A DNA stretch of 64,000 nucleotides from Luzula sylvatica. Taxonomy: Eukaryota > Streptophyta > Magnoliopsida > Poales > Juncaceae. The stretch spans positions 248,001 to 312,000 of the forward strand of contig CAMPEJ010000011.1 of NCBI GenBank assembly GCA_946800325.1, in the 5' to 3' direction. Shown in pieces: positions 9,262 to 40,348 of the stretch. Position numbers and translations under genes: made by a program. The notes under the pieces are model-generated. The model was not told the origin of the DNA. It saw only the letters and a list, made by a program, of their open reading frames with translations, and made no database searches. Within the stretch, counting starts at the first letter, position 1. Each line of letters begins with the position of its first letter.

Positions 9262-9479
9262 TAAGAAAGTTTGTTTTTCGATTCAAAACAATCTGTTTAT
9301 GCTTTGGGGAGTTCAAATAACGTATTTTGAGATCATTTGATTCGTATCTTTTACCACATAACATTTCACCAAAATTTACAAACACTAAGAAAGTTTGTTT
9401 TTCGATTCAAAACAATCTGTTAAATCTTTGGGGAGTTCAAATAACGTATTTTGAGATCATTTGAATCGTATCTTTTACC

Positions 9480-12450: not shown

Positions 12451-12708
12451 TATCTTTTACTACATAACATTTCACCAAAATTTTAAACACTATGAAAGTT
12501 TGTTTTTCGATTCAAAACAATCTGTTTATGCTTTGGGGAGTTCAAATAACGTATTTTGAGATCATTTGAATCGTATCTTGTACCACATAACATTTCACCA
12601 AAATTTACAAACACTACGAAAGTTTGTTTTTCGATTCAAAACAATTTGTTTATGCTTTGGGGAGTTCAAATAACGTATTTTGAGATCATTTGAATCGTAT
12701 CTTTTACC

Positions 12709-15679: not shown

Positions 15680-18600
15680 TATCTTTTACCACATAACATT
15701 TCACCAAAATTTACAAACACTAAGAAAGTTTGTTTTTCGATTCAAAACAATCTGTTTTTTTGCTTTGGGGAGTTCAAATAACGTATTTTGAGATCATTTG
15801 AATCGTATTTTTTACCACATAACATTTCACCAAAATTTACAAACACTAAGAAAGTTTGTTTTTCGATTCAAAACAATCTGTTTATGCTTTAGGGAGTTCA
15901 AATAACGTATTTTGAGATCATTTGAATCGTATCTTTTACCACATAACATTTCACCAAAATTTACAAACACTAAGAAAGTTTGTTTTTCGATTCAAAACAA
16001 TCTGTTTATGCTTTGGGGAGTTCAAATAACGTATTTTGAGATCATTTGAATCGTATCTTTTACCACATAACATTTTACCAAAATTTACAAACACTAAGAA
16101 AGTTTGTTTTTCGATTCAAAACAATTTGTTTATGCTTTGGGGAGTTCAAATAACATATTTTTAGATCATTCGAATCGTATCTTTTACCACATAACATTTC
16201 ACCAAAATTTACAAACACTAAGAAATTTTGTTTTTCGATTCAAAACAATCTGTTTATGCTTTGGGGAGTTCAAATAACGTATTTTGAGATCATTTGAATC
16301 GTAGCTTTTACTACATAACATTTCACCAAAATTTACAAACACAAAGAAAGTTTGTTTTTCGATTCAAAACAATCTGTTTATGCTTTGGGGAGTTCAAATA
16401 ACGTATTTTGAGATCATTTGATTCGTATATTTTACCACATAACATTTCACCAAAATTTACAAACACTAAGAAAGTTTGTTTTTCGATTCAAAACAATCTG
16501 TTAAATCTTTGGGGAGTTCAAATAACGTATTTTGAGATCATTTGAATCGTATCTTTTACCACATAACATTTTACCAAAATTTACAAACACTAAGAAAGTT
16601 TGTTTTTCGATTCAAAACAATCTGTTTATGCTTTGGGGAGTTCAAATAACGTATTTTGAGATCATTTCAATCGTATCTTTTACCACATAACATTTCACCA
16701 AAATTTACAAACACTAAGAAAGTTTGTTTTTCGATTCAAAACAATTTGTTTATGCTTTGGGGAGTTCAAATAACGTAATTTTAGATCATTCGAATCGTAT
16801 CTTTTACCACATAACATTTCACCAAAATTTACAAACGCTAAGAAAGTTTGTTTTTCGATTCAAAACAATCTGTTTAAGCTTTGGGGAGTTCAAATAACGT
16901 ATTTTGAGATCATTTGAATCGTATCTTTTACTACATAACATTTCACCAAAATTTACAAACACTAAGAAACTTTGTTTTTCGATTCAAAACAATCTGTTTA
17001 TGCTTTGGGGAGTTCAAATAACGTATTTTGAGATCATTTGAATCGTATCTTTTACCACATAACATTTCACCAAAATTTACAAACACTGAGAAAGTTTGAT
17101 CTTCGATTCAAAACAATATGTTTATGCTTTGGGGAGTTCAAATAACGTATTTTGAGATCATTGGAATCGTATCTTTTACTACATAACATTTCACCAAAAT
17201 TTACAAACACTAAGAAAGTTTGTTTTTCGATTCAAAACAATTTGCTTATGCTTTGGGGAGTTCAAATAACGTATTTTGAGATCATTCGAATCGTATCTTT
17301 TACCACATAACATTTCACCAAAATTTACAAACACTAAGAAAGTTTGTTTTTCGATTCAAAACAATCTGTTTATGCTTTGGGGAGTTCAAATAACGTATTT
17401 TGAGATCATTTGAATCGTATCTTTTACTACATAACATTTCACCAAAATTTTAAACACTATGAAAGTTTGTTTTTCGATTCAAAACAATCTGTTTATGCTT
17501 TGGGGAGTTCAAATAACGTATTTTGAGATCATTTGAATCGTATCTTTTACCACATAACATTTCACCAAAATTTACAAACACTAAGAAAGTTTGTTTTTCG
17601 ATTCAAAACAATCTGTTTATGCTTTGGGTAGTTCAAATAACGTATTTTGAGATCATTTGAATCGTATCTTTTACCACATAACATTTTACCAAAATTTACA
17701 AACACTAAGAAAGTTTGTTTTTCGATTCAAAACAATTTGTTTATGCTTTGGGGAGTTCAAATAACGTATTTTGAGATCATTGGAATCGTATCTTTTACTA
17801 CATAACATTTCACCAAAATTTACAAACACTAAGAAAGTTTGTTTTTCGATTCAAAACAATTTGTTTATGCTTTGGGGAATTCAAATAACATATTTTTAAA
17901 TCATTCGAATCGTATCTTTTACCACATAACATTTCACCAAAATTTACAAACACTAAGAAAGTTTGTTTTTCGATTCAAAACAATCTGTTTATGCTTTGGG
18001 GAGTTCAAATAACGTGTTTTGAGATCATTTGAATCGTATCTTTTACTACATAACATTTCACCAAAATTTACAAACACTAAGAAAGTTTGTTTTTCGATTC
18101 AAAACAATCTGTTTATGCTGTGGGATCATTTGAATCATTTGAATCGTATTTTGAGATCATTTGAATCGTATCTTTTACCACATAACATTTCACCAAAATT
18201 TACAAACACTAAGGAAGTTTGTTTTTCGATTCAAAACAATCAGTTTATGCTATGGGGAGTTCAAATAACGTGTTTTGAGATCATTTGAATCGTATCTTTT
18301 ACTACATAACATTTCACCAAAATTTACAAACACTAAGAAAGTTTGTTTTTCGATTCAAAACAATCTGTTTATGCTGTGGGATCATTTGAATCATTTGAAT
18401 CGTATTTTGAGATCATTTGAATCGTATCTTTTACCACATAACATTTCACCAAAATTTACAAACACTAAGAAAGTTTGTTTTTCGATTCAAAACAATCTGT
18501 TTATGCTTTGGGGAGTTCAAATAACGTATTTTGAGATCATTTGATTCGTATCTTTTACCACATAACATTTCACCAAAATTTACAAACACTAAGAAAGTTT

Positions 18601-21394
18601 GTTTTTCGATTCAAAACAATCTGTTAAATCTTTGGGGAGTTCAAATAACGTATTTTGAGATCATTTGAATCGTATCTTTTACCACATAACATTTTACCAA
18701 AATTTACAAACACTAAGAAAGTTTGTTTTTCGATTCAAAACAATCTGTTTATGCTTTGGGGAGTTCAAATAACGTATTTTGAGATCATTTCAATCGTATC
18801 TTTTACCACATAACATTTCACCAAAATTTACAAACACTAAGAAAGTTTGTTTTTCGATTCGAAGCAATTTGTTTATGCTTTGGGGAGTTCAAATAACGTA
18901 ATTTTAGATCATTCGAATCGTATCTTTTACCACATAACATTTCACCAAAATTTACAAACGCTAAGAAAGTTTGTTTTTCGATTCAAAACAATCTGTTTAA
19001 GCTTTGGGGAGTTCAAATAACGTATTTTGAGATCATTTGAATCGTATCTTTTACTACATAACATTTCACCAAAATTTACAAACACTAAGAAACTTTGTTT
19101 TTCGATTCAAAACAATCTGTTTATGCTTTGGGGAGTTCAAATAACGTATTTTGAGATCATTTGAATCGTATCTTTTACCACATAACATTTCACCAAAATT
19201 TACAAACACTGAGAAAGTTTGATCTTCGATTCAAAACAATATGTTTATGCTTTGGGGAGTTCAAATAACGTATTTTGAGATCATTGGAATCGTATCTTTT
19301 ACTACATAACATTTCACCAAAATTTACAAACACTAAGAAAGTTTGTTTTTCGATTCAAAACAATTTGCTTATGCTTTGGGGAGTTCAAATAACGTATTTT
19401 GAGATCATTCGAATCGTATCTTTTACCACATAACATTTCACCAAAATTTACAAACACTAAGAAAGTTTGTTTTTCGATTCAAAACAATCTGTTTATGCTT
19501 TGGGGAGTTCAAATAACGTATTTTGAGATCATTTGAATCGTATCTTTTACTACATAACATTTCACCAAAATTTTAAACACTATGAAAGTTTGTTTTTCGA
19601 TTCAAAACAATCTGTTTATGCTTTGGGGAGTTCAAATAACGTATTTTGAGATCATTTGAATCGTATCTTTTACCACATAACATTTCACCAAAATTTACAA
19701 ACACTAAGAAAGTTTGTTTTTCGATTCAAAACAATCTGTTTATGCTTTGGGTAGTTCAAATAACGTATTTTGAGATCATTTGAATCGTATCTTTTACCAC
19801 ATAACATTTTACCAAAATTTACAAACACTAAGAAAGTTTGTTTTTCGATTCAAAACAATTTGTTTATGCTTTGGGGAGTTCAAATAACGTATTTTGAGAT
19901 CATTGGAATCGTATCTTTTACTACATAACATTTCACCAAAATTTACAAACACTAAGAAAGTTTGTTTTTCGATTCAAAACAATCTGTTTATGCTTTGGGG
20001 AGTTCAAATAACGTGTTTTGAGATCATTTGAATCGTATCTTTTACTACATAACATTTCACCAAAATTTACAAACACTAAGAAAGTTTGTTTTTCTATTCA
20101 AAACAATCTGTTTATGCTGTGGGATCATTTGAATCATTTGAATCGTATTTTGAGATCATTTGAATCGTATCTTTTACCACATAACATTTCACCAAAATTT
20201 ACAAACACTAAGGAAGTTTGTTTTTCGATTCAAAACAATCAGTTTATGCTATGGGGAGTTCAAATAACGTATTTTGAGATCATTTGAATCGTATCTTTTA
20301 CCACATAACATTTTACCAAAATTTACAAACACTAAGAAAGTTTGTTTTTCGATTCAAAACAATTTGTTTATGCTTTGGGGAGTTCAAATAACGTATTTTG
20401 AGATTATTTGAATCGTATCTTGTACCACATAACATTTCACCAAAATTTACAAACACTACGAAAGTTTGTTTTTCGATTCAAAACAATCTGTTTATGCTTT
20501 GGGGAGTTCAAATAACGTATTTTGAGATCATTTGAATCGTATCTTTTACCACATAACATTTCACCAAAATTTACAAACACTAAGAAAGTTTGTTTTTCGA
20601 TTCAAAACAATTTGTTTATTCTTTGGGGAGTTCAAATAACGTATTTTGAGATCATTTGAATCGTATCTTTTTCCATATAACATTTCACCAAAATTTACAA
20701 ACACTAAGACAGTTTGTTTTTCGATTCAAAACAATCTGTTTATGCTTTGGGGAGTTCAAATAACGTATTTTGAGATCATTTGAATCGTATCTTTTACGAC
20801 ATAACATTTCACCAAAATTTACAAACACAAAGAAAGTTTGTTTTTCGATTCAAAGCAATCTGTTTATGCTTTGGGGAGTTCAAATAACGTATTTTGAGAT
20901 CATTTGAATCGTATCTTTTACTACATAACATTTCACCAAAATTTTAAACACTAAGAAAGTTTGTTTTTCGATTCAAAACAATCTGTTTATGCTTTGGGGA
21001 GTTCAAATAACGTATTTTGAGATCATTTGAATCGTATCTTTTACCACATAACATTTCACCAAAATTTACAAACACTAAGAAAGTTTGTTTTTCGATTCAA
21101 AACAATCTGTTTATGCTTTGGGTAGTTCAAATAACGTATTTTGAGATCATTTGAATCGTATCTTTTACCACATAACATTTTACCAAAATTTACAAACACT
21201 AAGAAAGTTTGTTTTTCGATTCAAAACAATTTGTTTATGCTTTGGGGAGTTCAAATAACGTATTTTGAGATCATTTGAATCGTATCTTGTACCACATAAC
21301 ATTTCACCAAAATTTACAAACACTACGAAAGTTTGTTTTTCGATTCAAAACAATCTGTTTATGCTTTGGGGAGTTCAAATAACGTATTTTGAGA
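15371..21394 (+). repeat. Long duplicated block, right copy (about 6 kb)
   Basis: This is the partner of the block at 6.2-12.2 kb, with the same rare markers in the same order. It keeps the full 132-bp form of the second chimeric monomer (18,334-18,465), where the left copy has a 22-bp shorter form. Beyond about 21,400 the two diverge. The intervening 12.2-15.4 kb is itself largely a tandem duplicate of the end of the left copy. Confidence 0.88.
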
Positions 21395-22873
21395 TCATTT
21401 GAATCGTATCTTTTACCACATAACATTTCACCAAAATTTACAAACACTAAGAAAGTTTGTTTTTCGATTCAAAACAATTTGTTTATGCTTTGGGGAGTTC
21501 AAATAACGTATTTTGAGATCATTTGAATCGTATCTTTTTCCATATAACATTTCACCAAAATTTACGAACACTAAGACAGTTTGTTTTTCGATTCAAAACA
21601 ATCTGTTTGTGCTTTGGGGAGTTCATATAACGTATTTTGAGATCATTTGAATCGTATCTTTTACGACATAACATTTCACCAAAATTTACAAACACTACGA
21701 AAGTTTGTTTTTCGATTAAAAACAATCTGTTTATGCTTTGGGGAGTTCAAATAACGTATTTTGAGATCATTTGAATCGTATCTTTTACTACATAACATTT
21801 CACCAAAATTGTAAACACTAAGAAAGTTTGTTTTTCGATTCAAAACAATCTGTTTATGCTTTGGGGAGTTCAAATAACGTATTTTGAGATAATTTGAATC
21901 GTATCTTTTACCACATAACATTTCACCAAAATTTACAAACACTAAGAAAGTTTGTTTTTCGATTCAAAACAATCTGTTTATGCTTTGGGTAGTTCAAATA
22001 AATATTTTGAGATCATTTGAATCGTATCTTTTACCATATAACATTTTACCAAAATTTACAAACACTAAGAAAGTTTGTTTTTCGATTCAAAACAATTTGT
22101 TTATGCTTTGGGGAGTTCAAATAACGTATTTTGAGATAATTTGAATCGTATCTTGTACCACATAAAATTTCACCAAAATTTACAAACACTACGAAAGTTT
22201 GTTTTTCGATTCAAAACAATCTGTTTATGCTTTGGGGAGTTCAAATAACGTATTTTGAGATCATTTGAATCGTATCTTTTACCACATAACATTTCACCAA
22301 AATTTACAAACACTAAGAAAGTTTGTTTTTCGATTCAAAACAATCTGTATATGCTTTGGAGAGTTCAAATAACGTATTTTGAGATCATTTGAATCGTATC
22401 TTTTACTACATAACATTTCACCAAAATTTTAAACACTACGAAAGTTTGTTTTTCGATTCAAAACAATCTGTTTATGCTTTGGGGAGTTCAAATAACGTAT
22501 TTTGAGATCATTTGAATCGTATCTTTTACCACATAACATTTCACCAAAATTTACAAACACTAAGAAAGTTTGTTTTTCGATTCAAAACAATCTGTTTATG
22601 CTTTGGGTAGTTCAAATAACGTATTTTGAGATCATTTGAATCGTATCTTTTACCACATAACATTTTACCAAAATTTACAAACACTAAGAAAGTTTGTTTT
22701 TCGATTCAAAACAATTTGTTTATGCTTTGGGGAGTTCAAATAACGTATTTTGAGATCATTGGAATCGTATCTTTTACTACATAACATTTCACCAAAATTT
22801 ACAAACACTAAGAAAGTTTGTTTTTCGATTCAAAACAATCTGTTTATGCTTTGGGGAGTTCAAATAACGTGTT
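20018..22873 (+). repeat. 23-monomer version of the 33-monomer unit (2,856 bp)
   Basis: From 20,018 to about 22,385 it matches 22,874 to about 25,241 at an offset of 2,856, including 'gtatatgctttggagag' (near 22,347 and 25,203), the 'gttcatataacg' monomer and the 'gattaaaaac' monomer. It then skips to sequence like 26,360-26,800. Ten monomers present in the 33-monomer unit are missing (4,096 - 2,856 = 1,240 = 10 x 124). It is either an ancestral shorter unit or a deletion derivative. Confidence 0.88.
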
Positions 22874-25800
22874 TTGAGATCATTTGAATCGTATCTTTTA
22901 CTACATAACATTTCACCAAAATTTACAAACACTAAGAAAGTTTGTTTTTCGATTCAAAACAATCTGTTTATGCTGTGGGATCATTTGAATCATTTGAATC
23001 GTATTTTGAGATCATTTGAATCGTATCTTTTACCACATAACATTTCACCAAAATTTACAAACACTAAGGAAGTTTGTTTTTCGATTCAAAACAATCAGTT
23101 TATGCTATGGGGAGTTCAAATAACGTATTTTGAGATCATTTGAATCGTATCTTTTACCACATAACATTTTACCAAAATTTACAAACACTAAGAAAGTTTG
23201 TTTTTCGATTCAAAACAATTTGTTTATGCTTTGGGGAGTTCAAATAACGTATTTTGAGATTATTTGAATCGTATCTTGTACCACATAACATTTCACCAAA
23301 ATTTACAAACACTACGAAAGTTTGTTTTTCGATTCAAAACAATCTGTTTATGCTTTGGGGAGTTCAAATAACGTATTTTGAGATCATTTGAATCGTATCT
23401 TTTACCACATAACATTTCACCAAAATTTACAAACACTAAGAAAGTTTGTTTTTCGATTCAAAACAATTTGTTTATTCTTTGGGGAGTTCAAATAACGTAT
23501 TTTGAGATCATTTGAATCGTATCTTTTTCCATATAACATTTCACCAAAATTTACAAACACTAAGACAGTTTGTTTTTCGATTCAAAACAATCTGTTTATG
23601 CTTTGGGGAGTTCAAATAACGTATTTTGAGATCATTTGAATCGTATCTTTTACGACATAACATTTCACCAAAATTTACAAACACAAAGAAAGTTTGTTTT
23701 TCGATTCAAAGCAATCTGTTTATGCTTTGGGGAGTTCAAATAACGTATTTTGAGATCATTTGAATCGTATCTTTTACTACATAACATTTCACCAAAATTT
23801 TAAACACTAAGAAAGTTTGTTTTTCGATTCAAAACAATCTGTTTATGCTTTGGGGAGTTCAAATAACGTATTTTGAGATCATTTGAATTGTATCTTTTAC
23901 CACATAACATTTCACCAAAATTTACAAACACTAAGAAAGTTTGTTTTTCGATTCAAAACAATCTGTTTATGCTTTGGGTAGTTCAAATAACGTATTTTGA
24001 GATCATTTGAATCGTATCTTTTACCACATAACATTTTACCAAAATTTACAAACACTAAGAAAGTTTGTTTTTCGATTCAAAACAATTTGTTTATGCTTTG
24101 GGGAGTTCAAATAACGTATTTTGAGATCATTTGAATCGTATCTTGTACCACATAACATTTCACCAAAATTTACAAACACTACGAAAGTTTGTTTTTCGAT
24201 TCAAAACAATCTGTTTATGCTTTGGGGAGTTCAAATAACGTATTTTGAGATCATTTGAATCGTATCTTTTACCACATAACATTTCACCAAAATTTACAAA
24301 CACTAAGAAAGTTTGTTTTTCGATTCAAAACAATTTGTTTATGCTTTGGGGAGTTCAAATAACGTATTTTGAGATCATTTGAATCGTATCTTTTTCCATA
24401 TAACATTTCACCAAAATTTACGAACACTAAGACAGTTTGTTTTTCGATTCAAAACAATCTGTTTATGCTTTGGGGAGTTCATATAACGTATTTTGAGATC
24501 ATTTGAATCGTATCTTTTACGACATAACATTTCACCAAAATTTACAAACACTACGAAAGTTTGTTTTTCGATTAAAAACAATCTGTTTATGCTTTGGGGA
24601 GTTCAAATAACGTATTTTGAGATCATTTGAATCGTATCTTTTATTACATAACATTTCACCAAAATTGTAAACACTAAGAAAGTTTGTTTTTCGATTCAAA
24701 ACAATCTGTTTATGCTTTGGGGAGTTCAAATAACGTATTTTGAGATAATTTGAATCGTATCTTTTACCACATAACATTTCACCAAAATTTACAAACACTA
24801 AGAAAGTTTGTTTTTCGATTCAAAACAATCTGTTTATGCTTTGGGTAGTTCAAATAACATATTTTGAGATCATTTGAATCGTATCTTTTACCATATAACA
24901 TTTTACCAAAATTTACAAACACTAAGAAAGTTTGTTTTTCGATTCAAAACAATTTGTTTATGCTTTGGGGAGTTCAAATAACGTATTTTGAGATAATTTG
25001 AATCGTATCTTGTACCACATAAAATTTCACCAAAATTTACAAACACTACGAAAGTTTGTTTTTCGATTCAAAACAATCTGTTTATGCTTTGGGGAGTTCA
25101 AATAACGTATTTTGAGATCATTTGAATCGTATCTTTTACCACATAACATTTCACCAAAATTTACAAACACTAAGAAAGTTTGTTTTTCGATTCAAAACAA
25201 TCTGTATATGCTTTGGAGAGTTCAAATAACGTATTTTGAGATCATTTGAATCGTATATTTTACCACATAACATTTTACCAAAATTTACAAACACTAAGAA
25301 AGTTTGTTTTTCGATTCAAAACAATTTGTGTATGCTTTGGGGAGTTCAAATAACGTATTTTGAGATCATTTGAATCGTATCTATTACCACATAACATTTC
25401 ACCCAAATTTACAAACACTAAGAAAGTTTGTTTTTCGATTCAAAACAATCTGTTTATGCTTTGGGGAGTTCAAATAACGTATTTTGAGATCATTTGAATC
25501 GTATCTTTTACTACATAACATTTCACCAAAATTTACAAACACTAAGAAAGTTTGTTTTTCGATTCAAAACAATTTGTTTATGCTTTGGGGAGTTCAAATA
25601 ACATATTTTTAGATCATTCGAATCGTATCTTTTACCACATAACATTTCACCAAAATTTACAAACACTAAGAAAGTTTGTTTTTCGATTTAAAACAATCTG
25701 TTTATGCTTTGGGGAGTTCAAATAACGTATTTTGAGATCATTTGAATCGTATCTTCTACTACATAACATTTCACCAAAATTTTAAACACTAAGAAAGTTT

Positions 25801-26969
25801 GTTTTTCGATTCAAAACAATCTGTTTATGCTTTGGGGAGTTCAAATAACGTATTTTGAGATCATTTGAATCGTATCTTTTACCACATAACATTTCACCAA
25901 AATTTACAAACACTAAGAAAGTTTGTTTTTCGATTCAAAACAATATGTTTATGCTTTGGGTAGTTCAAATAACGTATTTTGAGATCATTTGAATCGTATC
26001 TTTTACCACATAACATTTTACCAAAATTTACAAACACTAAGAAAGTTTGTTTTTCGATTCAAAACAATTTGTTTATGCTTTGGGGAGTTCAAATAACGTA
26101 TTTTGAGATCATTGGAATCGTATCTTTTACTACATAACATTTCACCAAAATTTACAAACACTAAGAAAGTTTGTTTTTCTATTCAAAACAATTTGCTTAT
26201 GCTTTGGGGAGTTCAAATAACGTATTTTGAGATCATTCGAATCGTATCTTTTACCACATAACATTTCACCAAAATTTACAAACACTAAGAAAGTTTGTTT
26301 TTCGATTAAAAACAATCTGTTTATGCTTTGGGGAGTTCAAATAACGTATTTTGAGATCATTTGAATCGTATCTTTTACTACATAACATTTCACCAAAATT
26401 TTAAACACTATGAAAGTTTGTTTTTCGATTCAAAACAATCTGTTTATGCTTTGAGGAGTTCAAATAACGTATTTTGAGATCATTTGAATCGTATCTTTTA
26501 CCACATAACATTTCACCAAACTTTACAAACACTAAGAAAGTTTGTTTTTCGATTCAAAACAATCTGTTTATGCTTTGGGTAGTTCAAATAACATATTTTG
26601 AGATCATTTGAATCGTATCTTTTACCACATAACAATTTACCAAAATTTACAAACACTAAGAAAGTTTGTTTTTCGATTCAAGACAATTTGTTGATGCTTT
26701 GGGGAGTTCAAATAACGTATTTTGAGATCATTGGAATCGTATCTTTTACTACATAACATTTCACCAAAATTTACAAACACTAAGAAAGTTTGTTTTTCGA
26801 TTCAAAACAATTTGTTTATGCTTTGGGGAATTCAAATAACATATTTTTAGATCATTCGAATCGTATCTTTTACCACATAACTTTTCACCAAAATTTACAA
26901 ACACTAAGAAAGTTTGTTTTTCGATTCAAAACAATCTGTTTATGCTTTGGGGAGTTCAAATAACGTGTT
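22874..26969 (+). repeat. 33-monomer higher-order repeat, 4,096 bp, copy 1
   Basis: The start is set at the 'ttttgagatcatttg' after 'cgtg' that precedes the chimeric monomer; the phase is arbitrary. Length = 33 x 124 + 8 (chimeric monomer at 22,933) - 4 (one-base losses near 23,796, 24,662, 25,776 and 26,396) = 4,096. Every rare variant checked recurs 4,096 bp later, including 'tcttctactac' (25,752), 'gataatttg' with 'cttgtaccac' and 'gtatatgctttggagag'. Differences from copy 2 are few (see the findings). Confidence 0.95.
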
Positions 26970-29900
26970 TTGAGATCATTTGAATCGTATCTTTTACTAC
27001 ATAACATTTCACCAAAATTTACAAACACTAAGAAAGTTTGTTTTTCGATTCAAAACAATCTGTTTATGCTGTGGGATCATTTGAATCATTTGAATCGTAT
27101 TTTGAGATCATTTGAATCGTATCTTTTACCACATAACATTTCACCAAAATTTACAAACACTAAGGAAGTTTGTTTTTCGATTCAAAACAATCAGTTTATG
27201 CTATGGGGAGTTCAAATAACGTATTTTGAGATCATTTGAATCGTATCTTTTACCACATAACATTTTACCAAAATTTACAAACACTAAGAAAGTTTGTTTT
27301 TCGATTCAAAACATTTTGTTTATGCTTTGGGGAGTTCAAATAACGTATTTTGAGATTATTTGAATCGTATCTTGTACCACATAACATTTCACCAAAATTT
27401 ACAAACTCTACGAAAGTTTGTTTTTCGATTCAAAACAATCTGTTTATGCTTTGGGGAGTTCAAATAACGTATTTTGAGATCATTTGAATCGTATCTTTTA
27501 CCACATAACATTTCACCAAAATTTACAAACACTAAGAAAGTTTGTTTTTCGATTCAAAACAATTTGTTTATTCTTTGGGGAGTTCAAATAACGTATTTTG
27601 AGATCATTTGAATCGTATCTTTTTCCATATAACATTTCACCAAAATTTACAAACACTAAGACAGTTTGTTTTTCGATTCAAAACAATCTGTTTATGCTTT
27701 GGGGAGTTCAAATAACGTATTTTGAGATCATTTGAATCGTATCTTTTACGACATAACATTTCACCAAAATTTACAAACACTAAGAAAGTTTGTTTTTCGA
27801 TTCAAAGCAATCTGTTTATGCTTTGGGGAGTTCAAATAACGTATTTTGAGATCATTTGAATCGTATCTTTTACTACATAACATTTCACCAAAATTTTAAA
27901 CACTAAGAAAGTTTGTTTTTCGATTCAAAACAATCTGTTTATGCTTTGGGGAGTTCAAATAACGTATTTTGAGATCATTTGAATCGTATCTTTTACCACA
28001 TAACATTTCACCAAAATTTACAAACACTAAGAAAGTTTGTTTTTCGATTCAAAACAATCTGTTTATGCTTTGGGTAGTTCAAATAACGTATTTTGAGATC
28101 ATTTGAATCGTATCTTTTACCACATAACATTTTACCAAAATTTACAAACACTAAGAAAGTTTGTTTTTCGATTCAAAACAATTTGTTTATGCTTTGGGGA
28201 GTTCAAATAACGTATTTTGAGATCATTTGAATCGTATCTTGTACCACATAACATTTCACCAAAATTTACAAACACTACGAAAGTTTGTTTTTCGATTCAA
28301 AACAATCTGTTTATGCTTTGGGGAGTTCAAATAACGTATTTTGAGATCATTTGAATCGTATCTTTTACCACATAACATTTCACCAAAATTTACAAACACT
28401 AAGAAAGTTTGTTTTTCGATTCAAAACAATTTGTTTATGCTTTGGGGAGTTCAAATAACGTATTTTGAGATCATTTGAATCGTATCTTTTTCCATATAAC
28501 ATTTCACCAAAATTTACGAACACTAAGACAGTTTGTTTTTCGATTCAAAACAATCTGTTTATGCTTTGGGGAGTTCATATAACGTATTTTGAGATCATTT
28601 GAATCGTATCTTTTACGACATAACATTTCACCAAAATTTACAAACACTACGAAAGTTTGTTTTTCGATTAAAAACAATCTGTTTATGCTTTGGGGAGTTC
28701 AAATAACGTATTTTGAGATCATTTGAATCGTATCTTTTATTACATAACATTTCACCAAAATTGTAAACACTAAGAAAGTTTGTTTTTCGATTCAAAACAA
28801 TCTGTTTATGCTTTGGGGAGTTCAAATAACGTATTTTGAGATAATTTGAATCGTATCTTTTACCACATAACATTTCACCAAAATTTACAAACACTAAGAA
28901 AGTTTGTTTTTCGATTCAAAACAATCTGTTTATGCTTTGGGTAGTTCAAATAACATATTTTGAGATCATTTGAATCGTATCTTTTACCATATAACATTTT
29001 ACCAAAATTTACAAACACTAAGAAAGTTTGTTTTTCGATTCAAAACAATTTGTTTATGCTTTGGGGAGTTCAAATAACGTATTTTGAGATAATTTGAATC
29101 GTATCTTGTACCACATAAAATTTCACCAAAATTTACAAACACTACGAAAGTTTGTTTTTCGATTCAAAACAATCTGTTTATGCTTTGGGGAGTTCAAATA
29201 ACGTATTTTGAGATCATTTGAATCGTATCTTTTACCACATAACATTTCACCAAAATTTACAAACACTAAGAAAGTTTGTTTTTCGATTCAAAACAATCTG
29301 TATATGCTTTGGAGAGTTCAAATAACGTATTTTGAGATCATTTGAATCGTATATTTTACCACATAACATTTTACCAAAATTTACAAACACTAAGAAAGTT
29401 TGTTTTTCGATTCAAAACAATTTGTGTATGCTTTGGGGAGTTCAAATAACGTATTTTGAGATCATTTGAATCGTATCTATTACCACATAACATTTCACCC
29501 AAATTTACAAACACTAAGAAAGTTTGTTTTTCGATTCAAAACAATCTGTTTATGCTTTGGGGAGTTGAAATAACGTATTTTGAGATCATTTGAATCGTAT
29601 CTTTTACTACATAACATTTCACCAAAATTTACAAACACTAAGAAAGTTTGTTTTTCGATTCAAAACAATTTGTTTATGCTTTGGGGAGTTCAAATAACAT
29701 ATTTTTAGATCATTCGAATCGTATCTTTTACCACATAACATTTCACCAAAATTTACAAACACTAAGAAAGTTTGTTTTTCGATTCAAAACAATCTGTTTA
29801 TGCTTTGGGGAGTTCAAATAACGTATTTTGAGATCATTTGAATCGTATCTTCTACTACATAACATTTCACCAAAATTTTAAACACTAAGAAAGTTTGTTT

Positions 29901-31065
29901 TTCGATTCAAAACAATCTGTTTATGCTTTGGGGAGTTCAAATAACGTATTTTGAGATCATTTGAATCGTATCTTTTACCACATAACATTTCACCAAAATT
30001 TACAAACACTAAGAAAGTTTGTTTTTCGATTCAAAACAATATGTTTATGCTTTGGGTAGTTCAAATAACGTATTTTGAGATCATTTGAATCGTATCTTTT
30101 ACCACATAACATTTTACCAAAATTTACAAACACTAAGAAAGTTTGTTTTTCGATTCAAAACAATTTGTTTATGCTTTGGGGAGTTCAAATAACGTATTTT
30201 GAGATCATTGGAATCGTATCTTTTACTACATAACATTTCACCAAAATTTACAAACACTAAGAAAGTTTGTTTTTCGATTCAAAACAATTTGCTTATGCTT
30301 TGGGGAGTTCAAATAACGTATTTTGAGATCATTCGAATCGTATCTTTTACCACATAACATTTCACCAAAATTTACAAACACTAAGAAAGTTTGTTTTTCG
30401 ATTAAAAACAATCTGTTTATGCTTTGGGGAGTTCAAATAACGTATTTTGAGATCATTTGAATCGTATCTTTTACTACATAACATTTCACCAAAATTTTAA
30501 ACACTATGAAAGTTTGTTTTTCGATTCAAAACAATCTGTTTATGCTTTGGGGAGTTCAAATAACGTATTTTGAGATCATTTGAATCGTATCTTTTACCAC
30601 ATAACATTTCACCAAACTTTACAAACACTAAGAAAGTTTGTTTTTCGATTCAAAACAATCTGTTTATGCTTTGGGTAGTTCAAATAACATATTTTGAGAT
30701 CATTTGAATCGTATCTTTTACCACATAACAATTTACCAAAATTTACAAACACTAAGAAAGTTTGTTTTTCGATTCAAGACAATTTGTTGATGCTTTGGGG
30801 AGTTCAAATAACGTATTTTGAGATCATTGGAATCGTATCTTTTACTACATAACATTTCACCAAAATTTACAAACACTAAGAAAGTTTGTTTTTCGATTCA
30901 AAACAATTTGTTTATGCTTTGGGGAATTCAAATAACATATTTTTAGATCATTCGAATCGTATCTTTTACCACATAACTTTTCACCAAAATTTACAAACAC
31001 TAAGAAAGTTTGTTTTTCGATTCAAAACAATCTGTTTATGCTTTGGGGAGTTCAAATAACGTGTT
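26970..31065 (+). repeat. 33-monomer higher-order repeat, 4,096 bp, copy 2
   Basis: Tandem copy of the preceding unit. I noted eight base differences by eye, for example 'acattttg' near 27,313, 'aaactctacg' at 27,407, 'cactaag' near 27,780 against 'cacaaag', 'gttgaaa' near 29,569 and 'ttgggg' near 30,550 against 'ttgagg'. That is about 99.8% identity if few were missed, far closer than neighbouring monomers are to one another. Confidence 0.95.
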
Positions 31066-33980
31066 TTGAGATCATTTGAATCGTATCTTTTACTACATAA
31101 CATTTCACCAAAATTTACAAACACTAAGAATGTTTGTTTTTCGATTCAAAACAATCTGTTTATGCTGTGGGATCATTTGAATCATTTGAATCGTATTTTG
31201 AGATCATTTGAATCGTATCTTTTACCACATAACATTTCACCAAAATTTACAAACACTAAGGAAGTTTGTTTTTCGATTCAAAACAATCAGTTTATGCTAT
31301 GGGGAGTTCAAATAACGTATTTTGAGATCATTTGAATCGTATCTTTTACCACATAACATTTTACCAAAATTTACAAACACTAAGAAAGTTTGTTTTTCGA
31401 TTCAAAACATTTTGTTTATGCTTTGGGGAGTTCAAATAACGTATTTTGAGATTATTTGAATCGTATCTTGTACCACATAACATTTCACCAAAATTTACAA
31501 ACTCTACGAAAGTTTGTTTTTCGATTCAAAACAATCTGTTTATGCTTTGGGGAGTTCAAATAACGTATTTTGAGATCATTTGAATCGTATCTTTTACCAC
31601 ATAACATTTCACCAAAATTTACAAACACTAAGAAAGTTTGTTTTTCGATTCAAAACAATTTGTTTATTCTTTGGGGAGTTCAAATAACGTATTTTGAGAT
31701 CATTTGAATCGTATCTTTTTCCATATAACATTTCACCAAAATTTACAAACACTAAGACAGTTTGTTTTTCGATTCAAAACAATCTGTTTATGCTTTGGGG
31801 AGTTCAAATAACGTATTTTGAGATCATTTGAATCGTATCTTTTACGACATAACATTTCACCAAAATTTACAAACACTAAGAAAGTTTGTTTTTCGATTCA
31901 AAGCAATCTGTTTATGCTTTGGGGAGTTCAAATAACGTATTTTGAGATCATTTGAATCGTATCTTTTACTACATAACATTTCACCAAAATTTTAAACACT
32001 AAGAAAGTTTGTTTTTCGATTCAAAACAATCTGTTTATGCTTTGGGGAGTTCAAATAACGTATTTTGAGATCATTTGAATCGTATCTTTTACCACATAAC
32101 ATTTCACCAAAATTTACAAACACTAAGAAAGTTTGTTTTTCGATTCAAAACAATCTGTTTATGCTTTGGGTAGTTCAAATAACGTATTTTGAGATCATTT
32201 GAATCGTATCTTTTACCACATAACATTTTACCAAAATTTACAAACACTAAGAAAGTTTGTTTTTCGATTCAATACAATTTGTTTATGCTTTGGGGAGTTC
32301 AAATAACGTATTTTGAGATCATTTGAATCGTATCTTGTACCACATAACATTTCACCAAAATTTACAAACACTACGAAAGTTTGTTTTTCGATTCAAAACA
32401 ATCTGTTTATGCTTTGGGGAGTTCAAATAACGTATTTTGCGATCATTTGAATCGTATCTTTTACCACATACCATTTCACCAAAATTTACAAACACTAAGA
32501 AAGTTTGTTTTTCGATTCAAAACAATTTGTTTATGCTTTGGGGAGTTCAAATAACGTATTTTGAGATCATTTGAATCGTATCTTTTTCCATATAACATTT
32601 CACCAAAATTTACGAACACTAAGACAGTTTGTTTTTCGATTCAAAACAATCTGTTTATGCTTTGGGGAGTTCATATAACGTATTTTGAGATCATTTGAAT
32701 CGTATCTTTTACGACATAACATTTCACCAAAATTTACAAACACTACGAAAGTTTGTTTTTCGATTAAAAACAATCTGTTTATGCTTTGGGGAGTTCAAAT
32801 AACGTATTTTGAGATCATTTGAATCGTATCTTTTACTACATAACATTTCACCAAAATTGTAAACACTAAGAAAGTTTGTTTTTCGATTCAAAACAATCTG
32901 TTTATGCTTTGGGGAGTTCAATTAACGTATTTTGAGATCATTTGAATCGTATCTTTTACCACATAACATTTCACCAAAATTTACAAACACTAAGAAAGTT
33001 TGTTTTCCGATTCAAAACAATCTGTTTATGCTTTGGGTAGTTCAAATAACATATTTTGAGATCATTTGAATCGTATCTTTTACCATATAACATTTTACCA
33101 AAATTTACAAACACTAAGAAAGTTTGTTTTTCGATTCAAAACAATTTGTTTATGCTTTGGGGAGTTCAAATAACGTATTTTGAGATAATTTGAATCGTAT
33201 CTTGTACCACATAAAATTTCACCAAAATTTACAAACACTACGAAAGTTTGTTTTTCGATTCAAAACAATCTGTTTATGCTTTGGGGAGTTCAAATAACGT
33301 ATTTTGAGATCATTTGAATCGTATCTTTTACCACATAACATTTCACCAAAATTTACAAACACTAAGAAAGTTTGTTTTTCGATTCAAAACAATCTGTTTA
33401 TGCTTTGGGGAGTTCAAATAACGTATTTTGAGATCATTTGAATCGTATATTTTACCACATAACATTTTACCAAAATTTACAAACACTAAGAAAGTTTGTT
33501 TTTCGATTCAAAACAATTTGTTTATGCTTTGGGGAGTTCAAATAACGTATTTTGAGATCATTTGAATCGTATCTATTACCACATAACATTTCACCCAAAT
33601 TTACAAACACTAAGAAAGTTTGTTTTTCGATTCAAAACAATCTGTTTATGCTTTGGGGAGTTCAAATAACGTATTTTGAGATCATTTGAATCGTATCTTT
33701 TACTACATAACATTTCACCAAAATTTACAAACACTAAGAAAGTTTGTTTTTCGATTCAAAACAATTTGTTTATGCTTTGGGGAGTTCAAATAACATATTT
33801 TTAGATCATTCGAATCGTATCTTTTACCACATAACATTTCACCAAAATTTACAAACACTAAGAAAGTTTGTTTTTCGATTCAAAACAATCTGTTTATGCT
33901 TTGGGGAGTTCAAATAACGTATTTTGAGATCATTTGAATCGTATCTTCTACTACATAACATTTCACCAAAATTTTAAACA
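31066..33980 (+). repeat. 33-monomer higher-order repeat, truncated copy 3
   Basis: It follows copy 2 in register up to the 'tcttctactac' and 'attttaaacac' monomers (33,944 and about 33,972), again 4,096 bp after their partners. It then leaves the pattern: one 'taccac' monomer is skipped and the sequence continues as mosaic. Private changes include 'taagaatgtttg' at about 31,130, 'caatacaatt' near 32,271, 'attttgcgatc' near 32,439 and 'gttcaattaacg' near 32,920. It holds the last chimeric monomer of the window. Confidence 0.93.
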
Positions 33981-36900
33981 CTAAGAAAGTTTGTTTTTCG
34001 ATTCAAAACAATCTGTTTATGCTTTGGGTAGTTCAAATAACGTATTTTGAGATCATTTGAATCGTATCTTTTACCACATAACATTTTACCAAAATTTACA
34101 AACACTAAGAAAGTTTGTTTTTCGATTCAAAACAATTTGTTTATGCTTTGGGGAGTTCAAATAACGTATTTTGAGATCATTGGAATCGTATCTTTTACTA
34201 CATAACATTTCACCAAAATTTACAAACACTACGAAAGTTTGTTTTTCGATTCAAAACAATTTGTTTATGCTTTGGGGAGTTCAAATAACATATTTTTAGA
34301 TCATTCGAATCGTATCTTTTACCACATAACATTTCCCCAAAATTTACAAACACTAAGAAAGTTTGTTTTTCGATTCAAAACAATCTGTTTATGCTTTGGG
34401 GAGTTCAAATAACGTATTTTGAGATCATTTGAATCGTATCTTTTACCACATAACATTTCACCAAAATTTACAAACACTAAGAAAGTTTGTTTTTCTATTC
34501 AAAACAATCTGTTTATGCTTTGGGGAGTTCAAATAACGTATTTTGAGATCATTTGAATCGTATCTTTTACCACATAACATTTCACCAAAATTTACAAACA
34601 CTAAGAAAGTTTGTTTTTCGATTCAAAACAATTTGTTTATGCTTTGGGGAGTTCAAATAACGTATTTTGGGATCATTTGAATCGTATCTTTTTCAGATAA
34701 CATTTCACCAAAATTTACAAACACTAAGAAAGTTTGTTTTTCTATTCAAAACAATCTGTTTATGCTTTGGGGAGTTCAAATAACGTATTTTGAGATCATT
34801 TGAATCGTATCTTTTACCACATAACATTTCACCAAAATTTACAAACACTAAGAAAGTTTGTTTTTCGATTCAAAACAATTTGTTTATGCTTTGGGGAGTT
34901 CAAATAACGTATTTTGGGATCATTTGAATCGTATCTTTTTCAGATAACATTTCACCAAAATTTACAAACACTAAGAAAGTTTGTTTTTCGATTTAAAACA
35001 ATCTGTTTATGCTTTCGGGAGTTCAAATAACGTATTTTGAGATCATTTGAATCGTATCTTTTACCACATAACATTTCACCAAAATTTACAAACACTAAGA
35101 AAGTTTGTTTTTCGATTCAAAACAATCTGTTTATGCTTTGGGGAGTTCAAGTAACGTATTTTGAGATCATTTGAATCGTATATTTTACCACATAACATTT
35201 TACCAAAATTTACAAACACTAAGAAATTTTGTTTTTCGATTCAAAACAATTTGTTTATGCTTTGGGGAGTTCAAATAACGTATTTTGAGATCATTTGAAT
35301 CGTATCTTTTACCACATAACATTTCACCCAAATATTCAAACACTAAGAAAGTTTGTTTTTCGATTCAAAACAATCTGTTTATGCTTTGGGGAGTTCAAAT
35401 AACGTATTTTGAGATCATTTGAATCGTATCTTTTACCACATAACATTTCACCAAAATTTACAAACACTAAGAAAGTTTGTTTTTCGATTCAAAACAATTT
35501 GTTTATGCTTTGGGGAGTTCAAATAACGTATTTTGAGATCATTTGAATCGTATCTTTTTCCATATAACATTTCACCAAAATTTACGAACACTAAGACAGT
35601 TTGTTTTTCGATTCAAAACAATCTGTTTATGCTTTGGGGAGTTCAAATAACGTATTTTGAGATCATTTGAATCGTATCTTTTACGACATAACATTTCACC
35701 AAAATTTACAAACACTACGAAAGTTTATTTTTCGATTAAAAACAATCTGTTTATGCTTTGGGGAGTTCAAATAACGTATTTTGAGATCATTTGAATCGTA
35801 TCTTTTACTACATAACATTTCACCAAAATTGTAAACACTAAGAAAGTTTGTTTTTCGATTCAAAACAATCTGTTTATGCTTTGGGGAGTTCAAATAACGT
35901 ATTTTGACATCATTTGAATCGTATCTTTTACCACATAACATTTCACCAAAATTTACAAACACTAAGAAAGTTTGTTTTTCGATTCAAAACAATCTGTTTA
36001 TGCTTTGGGTAGTTCAAATAAAATATTTTGAGATCATTTGAATCGTATCTTTTACCATATAACATTTTACCAAAATTTACAAACACTAGGAAAGTTTGTT
36101 TTTCGATTCAAAACAATTTGTTTATGCTTTGGGGAGTTCAAATAACGTATTTTGGGATCATTTGAATCGTATCTTTTTCAGATAACATTTCACCAAAATT
36201 TACAAACACTAAGAAAGTTTGTTTTTCTATTCAAAACAATCTGTTTATGCTTTGGGGAGTTCAAATAACGTATTTTGAGATCATTTGAATCGTATCTTTT
36301 ACCACATAACATTTCACCAAAATTTACAAACACTAAGAAAGTTTGTTTTTCGATTCAAAACAATTTGTTTATGCTTTGGGGAGTTCAAATAACGTATTTT
36401 GGGATCATTTGAATCGTATCTTTTTCAGATAACATTTCACCAAAATTTACAAACACTAAGAAAGTTTGTTTTTCGATTTAAAACAATCTGTTTATGCTTT
36501 CGGGAGTTCAAATAACGTATTTTGAGATCATTTGAATCGTATCTTTTACCACATAACATTTCACCAAAATTTACAAACACTAAGAAAGTTTGTTTTTCGA
36601 TTTAAAACAATCTGTTTATGCTTTGGGGAGTTCAAGTAACGTATTTTGAGATCATTTGAATCGTATATTTTACCACATAACATTTTACCAAAATTTACAA
36701 ACACTAAGAAATTTTGTTTTTCGATTCAAAACAATTTGTTTATGCTTTGGGGAGTTCAAATAACGTATTTTGAGATCATTTGAATCGTATCTTTTACCAC
36801 ATAACATTTCACCCAAATTTACAAACACTAAGAAAGTTTGTTTTTCGATTCAAAACAATCTGTTTATGCTTTGGGGAGTTCAAATAACGTATTTTGAGAT

Positions 36901-37829
36901 CATTTGAATCGTATCTTTTACCACATAACATTTCACCAAAATTTACAAACACTAAGAAAGTTTGTTTTTCGATTCAAAACAATTTGTTTATGCTTTGGGG
37001 AGTTCAAATAACGTATTTTGAGATAATTTGAATCGTATCTTGTACCACATAAAATTTCACCAAAATTTACAAACACTACGAAAGTTTGTTTTTCGATTCA
37101 AAACAATCTGTTTATGCTTTGGGGAGTTCAAATAACGTATTTTGAGATCATTTGATTCGTATCTTTTACCACATAACATTTCACCAAAATTTACAAACAC
37201 TAAGAAAGTTTGTTTTTCGATTCAAAACAATCTGTTTATGCTTTGGGGAGTTCAAATAACGTATTTTGAGATCATTTGAATCGTATATTTTACCACATAA
37301 CATTTTGCCAAAATTTACAAACACTAAGAAAGTTTGTTTTTCGATTCAAAACAATTTGTTTATGCTTTGGGGAGTTCAAATAACGTATTTTGAGATCATT
37401 TGAATCGTATCTATTACCACATAACATTTCACCCAAATTTACAAACACTAAGAAAGTTTGTTTTTCGATTCAAAACAATCTGTTTATGCTTTGGGGAGTT
37501 CAAATAACGTATTTTGAGATCATTTGAATCGTATCTTTTACTACATAACATTTCACCAAAATTTACAAACACTAAGAAAGTTTGTTTTTCGATTCAAAAC
37601 AATTTGTTTATGCTTTGGGGAGTTCAAATAACATATTTTTAGATCATTCGAATCGTATCTTTTACCACATAACATTTCACCAAAATTTACAAACACTAAG
37701 AAAGTTTGTTTTTCGATTCAAAACAATCTGTTTATGCTTTGGGGAGTTCAAATAACGTATTTTGAGATCATTTGAATCGTATCTTTTACTACATAACATT
37801 TCACCAAAATTTTAAACACTAAGAAAGTT
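33981..37829 (+). repeat. Mosaic domain with a 12-monomer (1,485-bp) duplication
   Basis: About 34,610-35,530 matches 36,095-37,015 at an offset of 1,485 bp (12 x 124 - 3). Both carry the paired 'ctttttcagataac' monomers (34,690/36,175 and 34,938/36,423), 'tttctattc', 'ctttcgggag' (35,011/36,496) and 'caagtaacg'. Between them, 35,530-36,095 resembles 32,560-33,120 of the 33-monomer unit. The part from 34.2 to 34.7 kb resembles 41.5-42.0 kb. This looks like several overlapping copying events, not one clean unit. An odd 'aaatattcaaacac' stands near 35,332. Confidence 0.8.
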
Positions 37830-40348
37830 TGTTTTTCGATTCAAAACAATCTGTTTATGCTTTGGGGAGTTCAAATAACGTATTTTGAGATCATTTGAAT
37901 CGTATCTTTTACCACATAACATTTCACCAAAATTTACAAACACTAAGAAAGTTTGTTTTTCGATTCAAAACAATCTGTTTATGCTTTGGGTAGTTCAAAT
38001 AACGTATTTTGAGATCATTTGAATCGTATCTTTTACCACATAACATTTTACCAAAATTTACAAACACTAAGAAAGTTTGTTTTTCGATTCAAAACAATTT
38101 GTTTATGCTTTGGGGAGTTCAAATAACGTATTTTGAGATCATTGGAATCGTATCTTTTACTACATAACATTTCACCAAAATTTACAAACACTACGAAAGT
38201 TTGTTTTTCGATTCAAAACAATTTGTTTATGCTTTGGGGAGTTCAAATAACATATTTTTAGATCATTCGAATCGTATCTTTTTCCACATAACATTTCACC
38301 AAAATTTACAAACACTAAGAAAGTTTGTTTTTCGATTCGAAACAATCTGTTTAAGCTTTGGGGAGTTCAAATAACGTATTTTGAGATCATTTGAATCGTA
38401 TCTTTTACTACATAACATTTCAACAAAATTTTAAACACTAAGAAAGTTTGTTTTTCGATTCAAAACAATCTGCTTATGCTTTGGGGAGTTCAAATAACGT
38501 ATTTTGAGACATTTGAATCGTATCTTTTACCACATAACATTTCACCAAAATTTACAAACACTAAGAAAGTTTGTTTTTCGATTCAAAACAATCTGTTTAT
38601 GCTTTGGGTAGTTCAAATAACGTATTTTGAGATCATTTGAATCGTATCTTTTACCACATAACATTTTACCAAAATTTACAAACACTAAGAAAGTTTGTTT
38701 TTCGATTCAAAACAATTTGTTTATGCTTTGGGGAGTTCAAATAACGTATTTTGAGATCATTTGAATCGTATCTTTTACGACATAACATTTCACGAAAATT
38801 TACAAACACTACGAAAGTTTGTTTTTCGATTAAAAACAATCTGTTTATGCTTTGGGGAGTTCAAATAACGTATTTTGAGATCATTTGAATCGTATCTTTT
38901 ACTACATAACATTTCACCAAAATTGTAAACACTAAGAAAGTTTGTTTTTCGATTCAAAACAATCTGTTTATGCTTTGGGGAGTTCAAATAACGTATTTTG
39001 AGATCATTTGAATCGTATCTTTTACCACATAACATTTCACCAAAATTTACAAACACTAAGAAAGTTTGTTTTTCGATTCAAAACAATCTGTTTATGCTTT
39101 GGGTAGTTCAAATAACATATTTTGAGATCATTTGAATCGTATCTTTTACCACATAACATTTTACCAAAATTTACAAACACTAAGAAAGTTTGTTTTTCGA
39201 TTCAAAACAATTTGTTTATGCTTTGGGGAGTTCAAATAACGTATTTTGAGATCATTGGAATCGTATCTTTTACTACATAACATTTCACCAAAATTTACAA
39301 ACACTACGAAAGTTTGTTTTTCGATTCAAAACAATTTGTTTATGCTTTGGGGAGTTCAAATAACATATTTTTAGATCATTCGAATCGTATCTTTTACCAC
39401 ATAACATTTCACCAAAATTTACAAACACTAAGAAAGTTTGTTTTTCGATTCGAAACAATCTGTTTATGCTTTGGGGAGTTCAAATAACGTATTTTGAGAT
39501 CATTTGAATCGTATCTTTTACTACATAACATTTCACCAAAATTTTAAACACTAAGAAAGTTTGTTTTTCGATTCAAAACAATCTGCTTATGCTTTGGGGA
39601 GTTCAAATAACGTATTTTGAGACATTTGAATCGTATCTTTTACCACATAACATTTCACCAAAATTTACAAACACTAAGAAAGTTTGTTTTTCGATTCAAA
39701 ACAATCTGTTTATGCTTTGGGTAGTTCAAATAACGTATTTTGAGATCATTTGAATCGTATCTTTTACCACATAACATTTTACCAAAATTTACAAACACTA
39801 AGAAAGTTTGTTTTTCGATTCAAAACAATTTGTTTATGCTTTGGGGAGTTCAAATAACGTATTTTGAGATCATTTGAATCGTATCTTTTACGACATAACA
39901 TTTCACCAAAATTTACAAACACTACGAAAGTTTGTTTTTCGATTAAAAACAATCTGTTTATGCTTTGGGGAGTTCAAATAACGTATTTTGAGATCATTTG
40001 AATCGTATCTTTTACTACATAACATTTCACCAAAATTGTAAACACTAAGAAAGTTTGTTTTTCGATTCAAAACAATCTGTTTATGCTTTGGGGAGTTCAA
40101 ATAACGTATTTTGAGATCATTTGAATCGTATCTTTTACCACATAACATTTCACCAAAATTTACAAACACTAAGAAAGTTTGTTTTTCGATTCAAAACAAT
40201 CTGTTTATGCTTTGGGTAGTTCAAATAACATATTTTGAGATCATTTGAATCGTATCTTTTACCATATAACATTTTACCAAAATTTACAAACACTAGGAAA
40301 GTTTGTTTTTCGATTCAAAACAATTTGTTTATGCTTTGGGGAGTTCAA
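37830..40348 (+). repeat. 9-monomer higher-order repeat, 1,113 bp, about 2.3 copies
   Basis: The markers 'gagacatttg' (38,506 and 39,619), 'cgattcgaaac' (near 38,333 and 39,446), 'ctgcttatg' and 'gattaaaaac' recur at 1,113 bp. Length = 9 x 124 - 3, the three losses being 'attttaaac', 'attgtaaac' and the missing base in 'gagacatttg'. Copies differ at 'tttaagctttg' (38,351), 'tttttccac' (38,281) and 'cacgaaaatt' (38,792). Confidence 0.88.

Follow-up and report, generated by a model that had tools for sequence, protein, structure and literature searches.

A 33-monomer satellite block in Luzula sylvatica is one of many differing local duplications rather than a fixed higher-order unit

In humans, higher-order units are the main organization of large satellite arrays. 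The alpha satellite of the human Y chromosome has a unit of 34 monomers (PMC8997354), and variable higher-order blocks are known from several plants: CEN178 of Arabidopsis, Papaver, Brachypodium, Palv156 of poplar and FabTR-2 of Lathyrus (PMC10199239, PMC11406182, PMC10910784, PMC12046899, PMC7004042). According to these plant papers, block lengths in Papaver and Brachypodium follow a negative exponential. Luzula sylvatica is a holocentric plant whose main satellite, the holocentromeric Lusy1, has a 124-bp monomer; its arrays make up 77 Mb of a 468-Mb assembly (25.10% of the genome in the repeat annotation), and CENH3 binds 247 of the 704 arrays, or 47 of the 77 Mb (PMC11538461). The term "higher-order" has 0 occurrences in the main text of that paper.

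The window analyzed here, 64,000 nucleotides of the unplaced scaffold C17, contains 514 monomers (197 distinct) of a satellite that shares its 124-bp monomer and its species with Lusy1, a likeness that covers monomer length and species. Compared with Lusy1, the window holds a sister form, subfamily B, whose identity to the A form found on chromosome 1 is 88.7%. The array is interrupted by an LTR retroelement and runs on past the window along C17. The main features are collected in Table 1.

Table 1 Features of the window (positions from its first nucleotide)
Feature	Position	Strand	Details
LTR retroelement end	1..218	.	8,376-bp element, scaffold 239,843-248,218, TSD AAGAA
124-bp satellite array, type B, unbroken, one orientation	218..64000	+	TRF period 124, 514 copies
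16-monomer (1,984-bp) tandem duplication	2077..6044	+	99.70%
74-monomer-shift duplication	6292..21323	+	6,292-12,119 vs 15,473-21,323, 47 monomers, 99.50%
26-monomer (3,229-bp) shift	9510..15596	+	23 monomers, 99.86%
Upstream 22-monomer block	19581..22313	+	matches 22,437-25,170 at 2,856-bp (23-monomer) shift, 99.78% identity
Unit copy 1	22787..26882	+	cut phase arbitrary
132-bp marker monomer of the unit	22933..23064	+	more copies at 27,029 and 31,125
Unit copy 2	26883..30978	+	8/4,096 sites differ from copy 1
Unit copy 3, partial, 3,050 bp	30979..34028	+	12/2,963 sites differ from copy 2
Paralogous empty site of the LTR retroelement	40644..41438	+	795 bp over joined flanks, ungapped, 1 mismatch
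17-monomer (2,108-bp) tandem duplication	47978..52193	+	99.72%
14-monomer (1,733-bp) tandem duplication	53309..56774	+	99.88%

The first-pass annotation of this DNA had placed a 4,096-bp repetition, with two full copies and a partial third, at 22,874-33,980. Base-by-base comparison at a shift of 4,096 bp bears out the repetition nearly to the base and confirms its location, but the true extent is slightly wider: 22,787-34,028, or 11,242 bp in 2.74 tandem, near-identical copies, with 20 mismatches in 7,146 positions (22,787-29,932 against 26,883-34,028). The edges were judged by eye from the list of mismatches, which turn dense past both ends. The unit comprises 33 monomers (28 of 124 bp, four of 123 bp and one of 132 bp), in agreement with the sum first proposed (33 x 124 + 8 - 4), and the eight differences originally counted between the two full copies are exactly eight. 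The comparison of copies 2 and 3 spans 26,970-29,932 against +4,096, and copies 1 and 3 differ at 16 of 3,050 positions; five changes are private to copy 1, one to copy 2 and 11 to copy 3, an inequality that fits two rounds of copying. Neighboring monomers were said to differ more than monomers one unit apart, and indeed the mean difference within the block is 5.88 per 124 at lag 1, against 0.36 at lag 33 and 0.68 at lag 66. The suggested monomer tree (FastTree, 91 monomers) points the same way, the nearest tip being 33 or 66 monomers away for 87 of the 91 and adjacent for none. The longest run of near-identical monomers (at most one difference) at a single lag reaches 40, at lag 33, against a maximum of 5 when the monomer order was shuffled (40 shuffles). 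Six other 132-bp marker monomers lie in the window, at 8,896, 10,873, 14,102, 18,078, 18,334 and 20,077. The upstream 22-monomer block is a truncated relative of the unit, their match stopping at 22,313, and about 44 kb upstream on C17 the 33-monomer spacing recurs over 1,847 bp with 21 mismatches (98.9%). Since this second occurrence is more diverged, the 33-monomer step was probably re-amplified.

The 33-mer is surrounded by other duplications. In all, 162 of the 376 kb of C17 were covered, that is, the window and ten 10-kb stretches (two overlapping by 2 kb), which all carry this satellite apart from one retroelement and the initial 2.7 kb of C17. Counting near-identical block pairs of at least eight monomers within 80 monomers of each other, 936 of the 1,210 monomers in these 162 kb belong to such pairs, although the stretch at the left end of C17 has none (0/58). 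Besides those of Table 1, the duplications on C17 include 5,457 bp at 99.93%, 3,221 bp at 99.93% and 9,181 bp at 99.49%, and further ones of 3,224, 4,712 and 2,480 bp; the regions 203-240 kb and 250-290 kb are similar piecewise, at shifts of about 30-55 kb. Shifts are by whole monomers, the duplications overlap and differ in divergence, and no period dominates the sequence covered. Joins keep phase, odd-length monomers being scarce (12 of 514 fall outside 123-124 bp: nine of 132 bp, two of 126 bp and one of 110 bp), and it is on this scarcity that the argument leans, as detection at the monomer level returns whole monomers only. A hidden older base period was considered and rejected: once recent runs on C17 are masked, none of the lags between 1 and 80 is very conspicuous, and the lowest means, at lags 7 and 14 (4.98 and 4.99), are only slightly below the baseline of 5.20, a weak hint of a decayed 7-monomer unit of about 867 bp. 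Block copying is seen in each of the two satellite forms sampled: type A, in one 20-kb stretch of chromosome 1, has a 60-monomer shift over 74 monomer pairs (19 differences), and a type B block of chromosome 2 has a 29-monomer shift over 27 pairs (three differences).

Formally, the 33-mer is a higher-order repeat, as its units resemble each other more closely than do the monomers within a unit. The TRASH rule, which is given as at least three consecutive monomer pairs with a variant score up to 5 (PMC10199239), recovers it with 57 successive pairs at lag 33 and 19 differences altogether. Likewise, the rule of AniAnn's asks that the k-mer interval peak for n monomers be no less than two times the mean of its neighbors (PMC12873891); at 33 monomers the peak ratio is 9.3 (k=6, own re-implementation), and ratios of at least 2 are also reached in the same window at 7, 9, 12, 14, 23 and 26 monomers. 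The block might thus be read as a canonical higher-order repeat in the style of human alpha satellite, in which one 33-monomer unit is homogenized array-wide and the window lies at its edge, a reading that also gains from the occurrence of the spacing at two places on C17. Nevertheless, there are just 2.74 copies, the remaining stretches of C17 give other shifts (44, 26, 74, 38 and 20 monomers) or none, and the longest self-matches in 10 kb each of C7, C13, C8 and chromosome 2 lie at 27, 37, 37 (just eight monomers long in C8) and 29 monomers. A stable array-wide 33-mer was rejected on account of these different shifts, and the canonical reading is very improbable. The array is better described as a patchwork of recent local duplications than by one fixed unit; the name "higher-order repeat" that the block was first given holds in the formal sense but does not designate the single unit of the array. 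The resemblance to the human Y unit is one of monomer number and of units far more alike than their monomers, whereas the human units differ from this 33-mer, with its 2.74 copies in 11 kb and other shifts around it. C8 was also considered as another location of the unit, and rejected. It carries two marker monomers 4,097 bp apart, but the shift is of 13 monomers only, which implies other sequence between the markers, and the longest run in common with the window is of 12 monomers (98.7%).

Two other explanations concern how the copies came about. The figure 4,096 is itself suspicious (4,096 = 2^12), and the window lies on an unplaced scaffold of the round size of 376,000, presumably cut in curation, so that a false tandem duplication, a haplotype copy or a 4,096-byte block error might be suspected. 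Yet the 33 in-phase monomers account fully for the figure, many other shifts are not powers of two, the pair 44 kb upstream is more diverged, and the copies differ by 8, 12 and 16 substitutions in an assembly with a reported QV of 59.9 (PMC11380069). As far as the sequence allows, these substitutions and this QV answer the worry about an assembly duplication, and an artefact appears very unlikely as the source of the 33-mer. Alternatively, an excised 33-monomer circle could have been copied by rolling circle and reinserted, without exchange within the array. This would yield tandem multi-copy blocks of identical phase, and circular DNA from plant satellites is on record (PMC2543021). Still, the copies are unequally diverged, and the truncated relative is found immediately upstream, shifted by 23 monomers, a situation that stepwise local copying fits better than a single insertion; a circular origin seems highly unlikely.

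The most probable reading (about 0.86) is that blocks of several kilobases keep being copied, through homology, in a large 124-bp array of Lusy1 type, and that the 33-mer is one of the products. A break or a stalled fork would arise within the array, and its repair would use an out-of-register template on either the sister or the same chromatid, perhaps by unequal exchange or break-induced replication, so that each repair would lengthen the tandem by complete monomers. Repetition at varied sites and with varied step sizes (shifts of 9 to 74 monomers are seen) would result in a patchwork, in which the 33-monomer step would have been taken at least twice to give the 2.74 copies. The repair pathway, the ages of the blocks and the present or past centromeric chromatin state of the array are points that we infer. 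The blocks of other plants are likewise local and variable in length, and those of FabTR-2 vary in pattern between individual arrays as they do in Luzula. The early remark that long units are less often described in plants is correct insofar as no unit of about 33 monomers is named in the available text of the plant satellite literature examined, but variable blocks are known in several plants. Luzula differs from these in its holocentric host, its 124-bp monomer and the long-block tail of its run lengths (five runs of at least 20 monomers against 0.8 expected under an exponential, in 74 kb and by our own strict criterion, not the published one). As this tail is heavier than exponential, a simple memoryless model fails to describe the copying.

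Subfamily B, which unlike A has a 9-bp inverted repeat, is located on unplaced scaffolds and in one block of about 2.1-2.4 Mb on chromosome 2. At 71 chromosome points on C1-C6, chosen independently of hits, the A form is found 11 times, near the share of 77 Mb in 468 Mb reported for Lusy1 (PMC11538461), and the B form 0 times. Genome-wide counts cover a B 34-mer and a 37-base core of the marker monomer only. The former has 75,169 matches, 36 of them on C1 among the matches listed, and the latter has 129 exact matches, none on C1-C6 among the matches listed (100 of 129); the statements on C1 and on C1-C6 rest on matches that are seemingly listed in contig order. The remaining 29 of the 129 are expected on contigs from C19 onward. 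The marker monomer is common to at least six unplaced scaffolds, and three unplaced B scaffolds (C13, C14 and C18) have no marker among the matches listed. C10 and C11, both of exactly 1,165,000 bp, were suspected to be mutual reverse copies, but their 1-kb ends do not match. Fragments of the satellite searched by letters in published papers gave no match, and a 31-base satellite pattern had 0 matches in viral contigs. Tentatively, and with more doubt than confidence, B may be a distinct young subfamily of the holocentromeric satellite, gathered in few large blocks where the A form is dispersed. The blocks could make up a chromosome-restricted, fast-recombining compartment, corresponding either to oversized centromere units or to the Lusy1 group of high similarity that ChIP data are reported to mark as "nonfunctional".

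The 33-monomer block is genuine, yet it belongs to a series of many differing local duplications and is not a fixed higher-order unit; it mainly illustrates the continual self-rewriting of a centromere-type satellite. The case for long higher-order units is usually built on monocentric centromeres, chiefly human ones. Here, a holocentric plant shows comparable block copying in its satellite, with readable step sizes and relative divergence, which makes Luzula useful for asking if satellite recombination depends on one large centromere. The split between A and B and the common marker also offer sequence tags by which unplaced scaffolds could be assigned and the published CENH3 data re-examined for each subfamily.

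From base 218 onwards the window is a head-to-tail array, on one strand, of a satellite with a 124-bp monomer. The 514 monomers cut from it include 197 distinct sequences and differ from the consensus at about 4 positions each on average. The 4,096-bp repeat that the first-pass annotation had proposed is real, and each unit is made up of 33 monomers: 28 of 124 bp, four of 123 bp and one of 132 bp (hereafter the marker monomer). Copies 1 and 2 differ at 8 of 4,096 positions, the very number given in that annotation, copies 2 and 3 at 12 of 2,963, and copies 1 and 3 at 16 of 3,050. Monomers one unit apart are, as it had also claimed, closer to each other than neighbours are (a mean of 0.36 differing bases at a lag of 33 monomers versus 5.88 at a lag of one), and in a FastTree phylogeny the nearest relative lies 33 or 66 monomers away for 87 of the 91 monomers and is adjacent for none. 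The longest near-identical run spans 40 monomers, versus never more than five in 40 shuffles of monomer order. A 110-bp monomer at window 9,152-9,261 resembles the marker monomer less 22 bp between internal direct repeats.

Coordinates of the satellite blocks and of the retroelement (C17, the scaffold that holds the window at 248,001-312,000; C2, chromosome 2)
Feature	Position	Extent	Remarks
33-monomer block	window 22,787-34,028	2.74 copies	shift 4,096 bp
Truncated relative of the 33-monomer unit	window 19,581-22,313		shift 23 monomers
LTR retroelement	C17:239,843-248,218 (window 1-218 is its end)	8,376 bp	TSD AAGAA; interrupts the array
B-type block	C2:30.06-32.2+ Mb	~2.1-2.4 Mb	same orientation at all points sampled

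The array in the window shows not a single unit but many different ones. Other tandem or nearby duplications within it have shifts of 74, 26, 23, 16, 17, 14, 20 and 9 monomers, and in the sampled parts of C17 more monomers are matched at a shift of 26 monomers than at any other, 33 included. If block pairs are counted that are at least 8 monomers long and lie no more than 80 monomers apart, duplicated blocks take in 936 of the 1,210 sampled C17 monomers, and 0 of 58 in the leftmost stretch. On a larger scale, C17:203-240 kb and 250-290 kb are similar piece by piece, at shifts of about 30-55 kb. Among the pairs of more than 30 monomers in the sampled parts, the least diverged are a 44-monomer pair (5,457 bp, 99.93%) and a 26-monomer pair (3,221 bp, 99.93%), which, being less diverged, are presumably younger than the 33-monomer unit. 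The 33-monomer spacing is seen once more in sampled C17, 44 kb upstream of the block (1,847 bp, 98.9%). As 45 monomers of that region also match copies 2-3, the 33-monomer step probably predates the present copies and was later re-amplified. Elsewhere, the longest self-matches of 10-kb stretches have shifts of 38 monomers at C17:101 kb, 29 on chromosome 2, 27 on scaffold C7, and 37 on both C13 and C8, the match on C8 being just 8 monomers long; C17:220-230 kb has no internal self-match of at least 8 monomers. The best-scored places for a 401-bp piece of the 33-monomer unit, with 40 of 600 candidates scored, are on C7, C11, C13 and C17. At C7:745,191-760,722 the spacing of marker monomers switches back and forth between 3,602 and ~2,362 bp, a 5,965-bp period in 2.6 copies that, as read only from the pattern list, is another long local unit.

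Duplications add whole numbers of monomers and odd-length monomers are scarce in the window (12 of 514, of three kinds), so that the joins seem to fall between aligned monomers, as would be expected of homologous out-of-register repair and not of end joining. According to models reviewed in PMC8997354, unequal exchange and break-induced replication both give such joins, and either may have acted here. The private changes of the three copies (5, 1 and 11, respectively) fit two copying rounds, and the truncated relative probably represents a further round with a different step. Long near-identical runs are commoner than an exponential distribution predicts, which counts against a simple copying model.

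The LTRs of the retroelement are ~2.54 kb long and 99.96% identical to each other. The stretch that contains all but its last 218 bp has two stop-to-stop frames of at least 120 aa (129 and 130 aa), neither of which matches Pfam above the cut-off; the element is thus probably young and non-autonomous. In the window, the top five matches to its empty site are all ungapped.

The consensus of the window (type B) is 88.7% identical to that of a chromosome 1 array (type A), where one stretch has a shift of 60 monomers. Type B has a 9-bp inverted repeat (CGATTCAAA / TTTGAATCG) but type A does not. Inverted 8-bp arms within 60 bp occur at 23.7/kb in B versus 3.4/kb in shuffled letters, and at 1.2/kb in one stretch of A versus 4.2/kb. 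The genome searched comprises 445,347,901 bp in 37 contigs: chromosomes C1-C6 (77.24, 74.93, 74.53, 72.90, 70.50 and 60.55 Mb), unplaced nuclear contigs C7-C35, and two others of 633,356 and 201,321 bp. At 71 400-bp points on C1-C6, chosen independently of matches in four sets (20, 18, 13 and 20), A was found in 11 (one just partly satellite) and B in none. The first 200-400 bp of the 29 unplaced contigs are B in 14, A in two and neither in 13; C17, among the latter, becomes B at 2.7 kb, and C17:1-2,700 is non-satellite sequence adjoining the left end of the array. A 34-mer specific to B is matched exactly at 75,169 places genome-wide (just 36 on chromosome 1, by list order) and is exact in 373 of 515 window units, from which B may, as a rough inference, total ~13 Mb. 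One isolated match apart, the sole B array among the matches listed on chromosome 1 is mid-chromosome (C1:38,638,578-38,651,877, ~13 kb), and in the pattern list it repeats about every 2.48 kb (20 monomers).

On chromosome 2, B was found at all ten targeted places sampled from 30.07 to 32.20 Mb, continuity between points being assumed, and at none of 29.90 Mb, 30.05 Mb and ten places from 32.50 to 35.60 Mb. The best-stretch identity to the window consensus is 91% at the left edge and increases to 95-97% further in. Genome-wide, there are 129 exact matches to a 37-base core of the marker monomer. The 100 listed are on C7 (34), C8 (38), C10 (1), C11 (4), C17 (11) and C19 (12), and none is on C1-C6 or on the B-type C13, C14 and C18. 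Going by these listed matches, there is a history common to at least six of the unplaced scaffolds but absent from the chromosome 2 block. The distribution of the listed matches suggests a single block or chromosome as the source of those six. The starts of C7, C12 and C15 carry a short C-rich minisatellite (AGATTTTTAAC then runs of C).

Lusy1, a 124-bp satellite, is described in PMC11538461 as the main holocentromere repeat of Luzula sylvatica; by species, monomer length and abundance, the window satellite is probably Lusy1. The chromosome 2 block is more than ten times as long as the mean CENH3-bound Lusy1 array given there (189 kb). The same paper links CENH3-bound arrays to more dyad symmetry and includes a highly similar group among the unbound ones; B may belong to either kind. 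The term 'higher-order' is absent from its main text, and the AniAnn's preprint, where it deals with these subjects, treats higher-order repeats for primates and Luzula just for satellite detection, so that higher-order blocks in Lusy1 look unreported in the texts searched. Variable higher-order blocks are described in other plant satellites (PMC11406182, PMC10910784, PMC12046899, PMC7004042). The blocks described here are thus a new case, but of a phenomenon already known in plant satellites.
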